In this document: piece after piece, positions 1,702 to 25,274 of the stretch
Position numbering within the stretch: position 1 is the stretch's first letter
Layout: each line of letters begins with the position of its first letter
Assembly: GCA_949127665.1 (NCBI GenBank)
Contig: CASBQE010000337.1
Location: 1 to 39,031 of the forward strand
Direction: 5' to 3'
Source of the DNA: Synechococcales cyanobacterium PMM_0083
Lineage (GTDB): Bacteria; Cyanobacteriota; Cyanobacteriia; Leptolyngbyales; Leptolyngbyaceae
Length of the DNA stretch: 39,031 nucleotides
The notes under the pieces: model-generated
The model's database searches: none
Told to the model about the DNA's origin: nothing
What the model saw: only the letters and a program-made list of their open reading frames with translations
Position numbers and translations under genes: made by a program

Positions 1702-3069
1702 CTAACGCTGTCGAGAACCACCGCCGCCTGAGCCGCCCATCCCTGGAAGCATTGAAGGCGTTCTAGATTGAGGGCGCTCTCCTGGAGGAAAACTGAGCAT
1801 GACCCGATCGCCAGCTTTCAACCCAGACAGCACGACTGTTTTGTCGCTGACGCTGACTCCGGTGGTAATGGGGCGAAACTCTGAGCGGCGATTCGTGGAA
1901 CGATCCCCTTGGGAATCGCCTTTCTCTCCAGCCATGACCAACACGCCGCTGGCTCCCTCTTGCCGCACGATCGCCACCGTTGGAATCACCAACACATCTT
2001 TCAACGTGCCAACCTTAAACTCTACATCCACACTCATTCCGACTCGAAGCAACTTTGTAGGATCGGCAACAGAAGATTTCACTTCAAAACTGGTGACATT
2101 TTGCACTGTGGTGGATTGGGTCGCCAGTTGAATTGCTCGTCCCACAAAGGTTTTGTCGGGATAGGCATCTACTTTAATTTCGACAGGTTGCCCTAGTTTG
2201 ATCTGGGCAATATTAGACTCCGCCACGTTTGCCATAATTTGATTGTTAGAAGCCAGAGACAAAATTGAAGATGACGTTGCAGAAGAGACTGCGCTTCCAG
2301 AAGTGGTGGGAGCGACAAAGGCTCCGGGATCAGCGAACTTTTTGGTGATAACACCACTAAATGGCGCACGAATCACGGTGTCCGCAATCTGAGTCTGCAC
2401 GGTTTGGAGTGAACCTTCGGCAGTGGTCACCTGGGCACGAGCTTCAGCGATTTCTTCAGGGCGAAACCCTGCCTGTTGTAGGGAAAGAGCTTGTTTATTT
2501 TGAGCAAGCTGGGCGATCGCGCTATCCCGGTCTGCTAAGGAGTTATTTAACTCCCGTTGAGAAATGGCTCCGGTGTTAAATAATTGTTGATTTTGCCGTA
2601 AGACTTGCTCTGTCCGTCTCAAACTTGCTTCGGAATCTCGAACCCGCGCCTGAGCTTGGGCAACGTCTTGAGTGCGATTGCCTGCCAGCAGCCGTTGCAG
2701 AGTGGCTTGGGCGGATGCAACTTGTCCTCTCGCCTGGGTAAGTTGTCCTTGAAAGTTGGAATCATCCATGTAGGCAAGAATTTGACCCTGCTCCACGCGA
2801 TCGCCCTCTTTCACCAACAGTTCTTTCAGCCTGCCTGATGTTTTAGGACTAATGTTAACAGAGCGTTCTGGCTGCACTGTGCCATTTGCCGAGATCGTCA
2901 CAGGCAAGTTGACTTGCTCAACTGCTACAGTTTTTCCTCGACGCTTGCCTTCTTTGAGATTGGCAGCGGTTACCTGGGTATACACCGCATAGCCAGCACC
3001 TGCTAATAGACTCAATATCAACAGAGTAATCAACCACTTGGGCACTCTTAGCTTTCTTAAGTCTTTCAC
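1702..3069 (-). CDS. HlyD/RND-type efflux periplasmic adaptor subunit
   Basis: N-terminal TM, barrel-sandwich NGTVQPERSVNISPKTSGRLKELLVKEGDRVEQGQILAYMD, coiled coil, VIRAPFSGVITKKFADPGAFV; Gly-rich tail. Confidence 0.92.
   Translation of the reverse strand: MKDLRKLRVPKWLITLLILSLLAGAGYAVYTQVTAANLKEGKRRGKTVAVEQVNLPVTISANGTVQPERSVNISPKTSGRLKELLVKEGDRVEQGQILAYMDDSNFQGQLTQARGQVASAQATLQRLLAGNRTQDVAQAQARVRDSEASLRRTEQVLRQNQQLFNTGAISQRELNNSLADRDSAIAQLAQNKQALSLQQAGFRPEEIAEARAQVTTAEGSLQTVQTQIADTVIRAPFSGVITKKFADPGAFVAPTTSGSAVSSATSSSILSLASNNQIMANVAESNIAQIKLGQPVEIKVDAYPDKTFVGRAIQLATQSTTVQNVTSFEVKSSVADPTKLLRVGMSVDVEFKVGTLKDVLVIPTVAIVRQEGASGVLVMAGEKGDSQGDRSTNRRSEFRPITTGVSVSDKTVVLSGLKAGDRVMLSFPPGERPQSRTPSMLPGMGGSGGGGSRQR
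1887..1920. repeat. Small palindromic dispersed element, copy A, inside the HlyD-like CDS
   Basis: GGCGATTC-GTGGAACGATCCCCTTGG-GAATCGCC: 8-bp perfect inverted repeat. Its core is shared with 24881..24912. Confidence 0.7.
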
Positions 3070-23848: not shown

Positions 23849-25123
23849 TTAGGGTAATTCATAGTTGAATTGCGGTGTTGACCGGAACGGTTTGAGTTGA
23901 GAGACAAGGGAATAGGCAAGCTTCACGGCTTGTTGTAGAGATTGGGGGGCTTGTTCTAAAAGAATCGGCTGAGGCGATCGCAGCGTAGGTACAGATGATT
24001 CAGCAAGGCTTGTGATCAATCGCCCATCTCCTTTTTTACTTGCAAGAACCGACAGCGATTTGTCGATATTTTCTATCGCTTCCAACTGTTCTAAGATGGG
24101 CGACAACAAGGTTCGAGCGTAGCTTCCATAGGCAACTCCTGAAATATGTGAAGGTGAAAGCGGTTGCGTGGGTTGAACTGTTTCAAAATGTGGCGTTTTA
24201 CAGTGCAGCATTGGGCGATCGCTGGAAGGATTAGAAGCTAGCAAGTTGAGCGATCGCAGTTTGGAAACAGTATAGCCATTCGTTCCTCCTGCCAACTGAA
24301 TATATCCTGGCAAGCCTGCAGTTATAACTTTTTGCCCTAACCGAATAGCGGCTCTGGTCGCGCCATTGCCAATATCTCCACTCATCGGGCGACCATCGGT
24401 TTGCCAAATTAGCGGACACGCTAACGGCGAAACAACATCGTAGAGTGCCCAGAGATATTCGAGCAGATTTTCGCCATCAGGGCAACTAATTGCAATGAGT
24501 TGCAGTTGGGGCAACCAAGGTTTAATCGCTGACCAGAGGCGCTGAAAATCTGCAAGCCGCCCTACTTGGGTATGAATTTCGATCGCATCAATGCCCATCT
24601 CTAGCACTAAGGGCGCGATCGCTTGAGCCGTTGAAACATAAGAATAGGCTGAAATGTGTTGAATGGGGCAAATCGGCAAGCAGCGCCCACAACCATAACA
24701 ACGATCTTCAATTACGCCAGTGCTTTTAATCGCATCAGCCGGACAAATCTGTTCACAAGGACGTGGACAATCTGAGGGGCAATTAAGCGGCAAAAATGAT
24801 GCCTTGCGAAAATGAGGATCTTCGCCATCATTTAGACTAACCATCAACAATGGCTTTTGAATAGGGGAAGAATTTTGCAGGCGATTCGTGGAACGCCCCT
24901 TCTGAGAATCGCGATGACTAATCTCCATCGCCACGCGAATTGCTTCTTTTGCAGCGATCACCACGGCTGGATCAGCAGCAATATCTACACAATCTACGCC
25001 AGCCAACGTGTATGCCAACGTTAGGTTGCGAACAGCGGGGAGATTTTGGAAACTGGCTCCGCAGATTAGTTTGAACCAGTGACCTTCTCTTAAGGATTGC
25101 AGCGGATAGTTTTGTTCACTCAC
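23849..25123 (-). CDS. ldpA: LdpA-like iron-sulfur protein (light-dependent period A; circadian input family)
   Basis: Ferredoxin-like cysteine clusters CPSDCPRPCEQICPADAI and CYGCGRCLPICPIQHI; cyanobacterial LdpA-like architecture next to ndhN. Confidence 0.85.
   Translation of the reverse strand: MSEQNYPLQSLREGHWFKLICGASFQNLPAVRNLTLAYTLAGVDCVDIAADPAVVIAAKEAIRVAMEISHRDSQKGRSTNRLQNSSPIQKPLLMVSLNDGEDPHFRKASFLPLNCPSDCPRPCEQICPADAIKSTGVIEDRCYGCGRCLPICPIQHISAYSYVSTAQAIAPLVLEMGIDAIEIHTQVGRLADFQRLWSAIKPWLPQLQLIAISCPDGENLLEYLWALYDVVSPLACPLIWQTDGRPMSGDIGNGATRAAIRLGQKVITAGLPGYIQLAGGTNGYTVSKLRSLNLLASNPSSDRPMLHCKTPHFETVQPTQPLSPSHISGVAYGSYARTLLSPILEQLEAIENIDKSLSVLASKKGDGRLITSLAESSVPTLRSPQPILLEQAPQSLQQAVKLAYSLVSQLKPFRSTPQFNYELP
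24881..24912. repeat. Small palindromic dispersed element, copy B, inside the ldpA CDS
   Basis: GCGATTC-GTGGAACGCCCCTTCTGA-GAATCGC: 7-bp perfect inverted repeat, same arm spacing and same reading frame as copy A. Confidence 0.7.
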
Positions 25124-25201
25124 TCCTTAATGCTAATGCCCTATGAAGAAATTTAGGGTTTTAAGGCGAAAATATTTTAATTTTGGCTTGGGGTGGGTTT
25201 C

Positions 25202-25274
25202 GGCTACGCTCAACCCGCAGACTTTAACTTTTGGCTACGCTCAACCCGCAGACTTTGGGTGTAAGCGTAGCCAA
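25202..25274. repeat. Two direct 24-bp repeats plus an inverted partial copy, intergenic
   Basis: GGCTACGCTCAACCCGCAGACTTT at 25202-25225 and 25233-25256; TTGGCTACGC (25231-25240) pairs with GCGTAGCCAA (25265-25274). Confidence 0.85.

Follow-up and report, generated by a model that had tools for sequence, protein, structure and literature searches.

A 24-nt palindromic element at HIP1 sites, mostly within genes, of a Leptolyngbya-type cyanobacterium closely matches the SDR5 kind of small dispersed repeat

The stretch of DNA analysed here (the window; 39,031 nt, contig CASBQE010000337.1 of Synechococcales cyanobacterium PMM_0083, assembly GCA_949127665.1) encodes an HlyD/MacA-type adaptor protein and, 23 kb away, LdpA, and each of the two genes carries one copy of a short palindromic repeat. 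The window's assembly (4.6 Mb, referred to as G000) was compared with that of Leptolyngbya sp. MAG ULC077bin1 (G041), the only other genome of the genus, and with more distant genomes. The features are as follows.

1702-3069, minus strand: gene for an HlyD/MacA-type membrane-fusion (adaptor) protein of 455 aa, insert after residue ~384 (Pfam HlyD_D23 2.6e-13, Biotin_lipoyl_2, HlyD_3; PDB match MacA 9qgy, 8.8e-14)
1888-1919, plus strand: copy A, a 32-nt unit made of the 24-nt element and both halves of the HIP1 target octamer (covariance model R1, 51.5 bits, E = 3e-10 in the window; present in G000 and the sister G041 only)
1891-1914, plus strand: inserted 24-nt element of copy A, ATTCGTGGAACGATCCCCTTGGGA, placed as GCG^ATCGC (8-residue gap in orthologues; exact 24-nt indels at HIP1 at other loci)
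23849-25123, minus strand: gene for LdpA (light-dependent period A), 424 aa, insert near residue 70-80, ahead of the Fe-S domain at 115-162 (PF12617 and PF25160; Pfam LdpA_C 1.7e-74, LdpA_Fe-S-bd 1.6e-23)
24881-24912, plus strand: copy B, a 32-nt unit in ldpA with a diverged interior (R1 42.3 bits, E = 4e-8; the G041 orthologue is without the 8 residues)

The original prediction placed a palindrome with perfect 8-nt arms at 1887-1920, read on the minus strand of the HlyD-like gene, and both its position and its letters agree exactly; within the ORF at 1702-3069 the 34 nt are read as GDSQGDRSTNRR. The second copy expected in ldpA lies at 24880-24912, within the ORF at 23849-25123, where it is read as RDSQKGRSTNR, and the two copies share 82% identity across 33 nt. 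A model search of the window with filters off returned copies A and B, their own reverse strands and noise, with no third copy, and the 34-nt sequence had no other match in the window at up to 3 mismatches (0 expected by chance). The HIP1 octamer is about 100-fold over-represented in the window (47 observed versus 0.46 expected).

Alignment of orthologues showed that the 8-residue insert of the HlyD-like protein is found in G000 and G041 and is missing from all other relatives examined, while that of LdpA is confined to G000 and absent from the sister orthologue. In the alignment with MacA (9qgy) the HlyD insert faces a 10-residue gap, which places it at a turn. The gap is clean, as had been anticipated, and spans 8 codons (24 nt) rather than the 11 or so proposed. 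At filled and empty sites compared between G000 and G041 the indels measure exactly 24 nt; a longer form of the element gives 27 nt. Of the empty sites of the sister species, readable at 12 loci, five are exact HIP1 (GCGATCGC), six differ from it by one letter and one by two; the one-letter differences probably reflect later divergence. Removal of the insert restores exact HIP1 in 126 of 147 copies from five genomes.

The outer letters of the palindrome, GCG...ATCGC, are thus a HIP1 octamer, GCG^ATCGC, that was in place before the insertion and was split by it. Since the filled and empty indels leave HIP1 behind, the outer arms are HIP1 halves and the element itself is ATTCGTGAAACGATCCCTACGGGA, or a version of it shifted by 1-2 nt; owing to the repeated AT, the exact insertion point can be placed only to within 2 nt. 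In the 34-nt palindrome the first G and the last C are flank, eight of the other 32 letters are the target octamer and 24 nt are insert. The palindrome as first described is therefore real, although only its 24-nt core, and not the ~34 nt supposed, is the mobile part. The consensus of the family under R1, a covariance model built from 20 copies, is GCGATTCGTGAAACGATCCCTACGGGAATCGC, and the inserted element starts with ATTCG and ends with GGGA. Any target duplication is at most the 2-nt AT and indistinguishable from none, and the indels are compatible with insertion without target duplication. A filled and empty pair could in principle also arise by precise excision of a very old copy instead of new insertion. 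Dispersal is recent at the scale of the genus, as judged from the ldpA copy absent from the sister and from the precise empty sites between species at 12 other loci.

The element has also inserted into itself. At one locus a 32-nt unit of G041 corresponds to 56 nt in G000, the extra 24 nt being TTCGCGAAGCGTCTCCAAAGGAGA at ACG^ATCCC, without target duplication, and at another locus a nested insertion has the opposite polarity between G000 and G041. A 53-nt form is a copy with a 21-nt insert at ACG^CTCCC, and here too the other species shows the empty state. The inner target, which falls between the two hairpins of the element described below, has CG^AT or CG^CT in common with HIP1. Approximately 18 copies of the 53-nt composite (32 + 21 nt, nested) occur in G000 (for example locus L121, 1501-1553), which suggests that the composite may have spread as a unit. 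In G041, two copies lie 310 nt apart within one ORF (locus L135, 1501 and 1811), one of which is missing from the G000 orthologue. The two sister genomes together provide a dozen filled and empty pairs as well as nested insertions, and fix the target to the letter.

The search for further genomic copies that accompanied the prediction of a small mobile dispersed repeat, tolerated in proteins, yielded many and bore that prediction out. The pattern GCGATTC-N12-26-GAATCGC has 34 matches in G000 compared with 0 for the reversed pattern, and the 15-nt left half combined with the right arm occurs 4 times. The R1 model gives 71 matches in G000 and 51 in G041, with 3 weak singletons across the remaining 40 genomes of the family. 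Among 390 genomes of the class the strict pattern matched only in G000, G041 and G064, and among 31 genomes tested with R1 there were 103 matches in G064, 51 in G239 from the same genus as G064, and 13 in G165, which belongs to a third family; some of these are reverse-strand matches of the same copy. The three genomes harbour related families, with compensatory changes in the stems. The element is patchily distributed and has expanded in bursts within single genera. One good plasmid match, a near-identical copy, lies within a methyltransferase gene on Planktothrix agardhii plasmid p1, and a Cylindrospermopsis plasmid has a weak match. Viral contigs held no exact match to the element; partial matches in Streptomyces phages (E about 0.3) were dismissed as chance.

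Folded as DNA, copy A forms a three-way junction, with two inner hairpins that covary between lineages. Pair 9-13 is T-A in the window's genus and C-G in G064 and G239, and pair 20-24 changes from C-G to G-C in G165. In total 15 cells are changed on both sides compared with 5.3 in shuffles, by a statistic that ignores shared ancestry, and 94% of cells are paired compared with at most 45% for slid structures. An alignment holding the two strands of identical palindromes was left out of the pair counts. Minimum free energy folds of individual copies often favour one long hairpin over the three-way junction. A loop-inverted subfamily (L108, L109, L015, L115 and L116 in G000; L130 in G041) has CGT-TCC-ACG with CCC-AAA-GGG, both hairpin loops being reverse-complemented relative to the CGT-GGA-ACG / CCC-TTT-GGG type.

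Among 76 copies read in detail, 61 fall within ORFs of at least 200 aa. De-duplicated copies fall in coding sequence as often as random positions of the same loci do; copies occur inside genes in both orientations, and some lie outside ORFs. Stops in the consensus close two of the six frames; of the 54 coding copies of G000 and G041, 0 lie in frame +1 and 1 lies in the second closed frame. In G064 and G239, where the hairpin is CGCGAAGCG and the TGA is gone, frame +1 holds 18 of 58 coding copies, as opposed to 0 of 54 in G000 and G041 (Fisher p = 2e-6). Frame usage is thus set only by stop codons. Inserts measure 24, 27, 45 or 48 nt, each a multiple of three, and off-length copies (30 and 33 nt) are in short ORFs. 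The comparison of the two lineages cleanly shows that insertion is blind to frame and is followed by loss of disruptive, stop-bearing copies. Most copies land in genes because the genome is mostly coding and insertion ignores the frame. The copies use four open frames and most encode other peptides, such as AIRETIPTGIA, RFVKRSLRES and AIPVGIVSRIA. The observation that two unrelated genes share a palindrome and a peptide in the same frame therefore holds, but means only that both copies use the same one of four open frames: insertion ignores frame and disruptive copies are lost, so the peptide common to the HlyD-like protein and LdpA is a coincidence of frame and not a functional feature.

A link to known small dispersed palindromes of cyanobacteria had also been suggested. 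SDR5, a HIP1-inserted small dispersed repeat of Nostoc, was reportedly described by Elhai et al. in 2008 in Genome Res 18:1484 (cited in PMC4390886), the abstract of which is said to give SDR5 a length of 21-27 nt and a structure with compensatory changes, and to mention nested copies among the SDRs. The family described here has indels of 24 and 27 nt, and inner inserts of 21 and 24 nt where copies are nested, has nesting in common with SDRs, and shows compensatory changes of structure (by a covariation statistic that ignores kinship). SDRs have been reported to be confined to the heterocystous clade. The present family differs in being amplified in a Leptolyngbya-type genus outside that clade, mostly as in-frame coding copies. 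The target is the same: the SDR5 passage of PMC4390886 states that SDR5 inserts precisely between the third and fourth letters of HIP1, with which the 2-nt-ambiguous insertion point found here is compatible, and the suggested link holds for the architecture given in that passage. By length, target and structure we file the family as the SDR5 kind, likened by description and not by SDR5 primary sequence. A 24-nt palindrome with dozens of copies in the same frequent octamer, mostly in genes and each time adding 8 amino acids, thus closely matches a kind already described.

The element differs from other known repeats. The Rickettsia palindromic elements (RPE) are likewise palindromic repeats in frame in unrelated protein genes, but they are ~150 bp and described as encoding a conserved peptide (PMC10969869), whereas the present element is 24 nt, targets HIP1 and is read in any open frame as four unrelated peptides; it is not an RPE. 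MITEs such as Nezha are also non-autonomous, dispersed palindromic DNA of cyanobacteria, but at 70-300 bp they are far larger, and the present element is without separate terminal repeats and has at most a 2-nt AT duplication, indistinguishable from none.

The copies are most probably (at roughly 0.88) a very small, non-autonomous mobile element of the SDR5 kind, 24 nt and sometimes 27 nt long, which inserts precisely into HIP1 irrespective of frame and adds tolerated passenger residues. Insertion is precise into the palindrome HIP1 (GCG^ATCGC), with no target duplication beyond the unavoidable 2-nt ambiguity, and the single-stranded insert together with the HIP1 halves could fold into an outer stem bearing two small hairpins. 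Stop-free copies with a length that is a multiple of three survive as 8-9 extra, tolerated residues. As a tentative further step, with the odds somewhat against it, the element may move as a folded single strand that is pasted at a cut in HIP1 by some host or transposon enzyme. A wider proposal is more doubtful than that step: that a 24-nt mobile DNA without an enzyme of its own exploits a HIP1-cutting host activity and keeps extending the proteins of scattered cyanobacterial genera by in-frame segments of 8 residues. SDR-type elements rank with the smallest known mobile DNAs. The complete genome G064, with ~100 model matches, is one place to seek the enzyme.

The strongest of the competing explanations, albeit a rather unlikely one, is that dispersal is driven by the host: a HIP1-directed nicking or repair activity, such as the methylation-linked system proposed for HIP1, would capture at HIP1 short folded DNA, or fragments derived from RNA, with no dedicated transposase. 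The target is exactly HIP1, the SDR5 passage of PMC4390886 notes that cutting directed to HIP1 could account in part for the insertion of SDR5, and the searches for Y1/HUH transposases, beside the copies and across genomes, revealed no mobilising enzyme. HIP1, however, occurs in many cyanobacteria and the element in few genomes.

Improbable, by comparison, is a REP/REPIN-like element whose hairpin is acted on by a RAYT or an IS200/IS605 HUH transposase that moves it. Enzymes of the HUH type insert single strands in folded form and leave no duplication. The present element resembles REP/REPINs in being small hairpin DNA of high copy number, patchy and amplified at the genus level, and Y1_Tnp genes are present in both sister genomes (one intact and one broken in G000; four matches in G041). 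None of these genes is flanked by copies, however, and the two do not correlate across genomes: G239 (~85% complete) has 51 matches and 0 Y1_Tnp, and G012 has 42 Y1_Tnp and 0 matches. The copies are also mostly intragenic, without the GTAG/CGTC tag or association with RAYT, and are thus not REPs; an IS200/RAYT transposase was rejected as the mobiliser, as copies neither flank it nor track it across genomes.

A conserved regulatory or structural DNA site (a terminator, attenuator, or replication or recombination signal) kept at useful places would be palindromic, structured and dispersed as the element is, but this reading is very improbable: copies lie within genes in both orientations at the rate of random positions, many loci are not conserved between species, positional conservation near specific genes was not seen, and Rfam returned nothing at E<=1. 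That the peptide common to the two proteins is a genuine motif (an RSTNR linker), arising by homology or convergence with the palindrome as a by-product, has virtually no probability left, despite the similar peptide and same frame of both window copies, since the same DNA is read in four frames as unrelated peptides, frame usage tracks stop codons across lineages and copies also lie outside ORFs; the frame diversity rules out homology.

Three further observations were made. The intact Y1_Tnp gene of G000 (C470:2349-2696, L151) encodes a 168-aa protein with the motif Y-x-x-x-Q-x-x-HH (YVDNQKSHH), which resembles subclass 1.2 of PMC6006769, and no copies adjoin it. The chromosome of G012, a complete genome of the family, carries ~42 copies of an IS200-type transposase gene and no R1 elements. 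In the window, two 28-nt direct repeats, TTT(C/T)GGCTACGCTCAACCCGCAGACTTT, with a spacing of 31, lie at 25198-25256 in the intergenic region upstream of ldpA and represent a type of repeat other than the 24-nt palindromic element.
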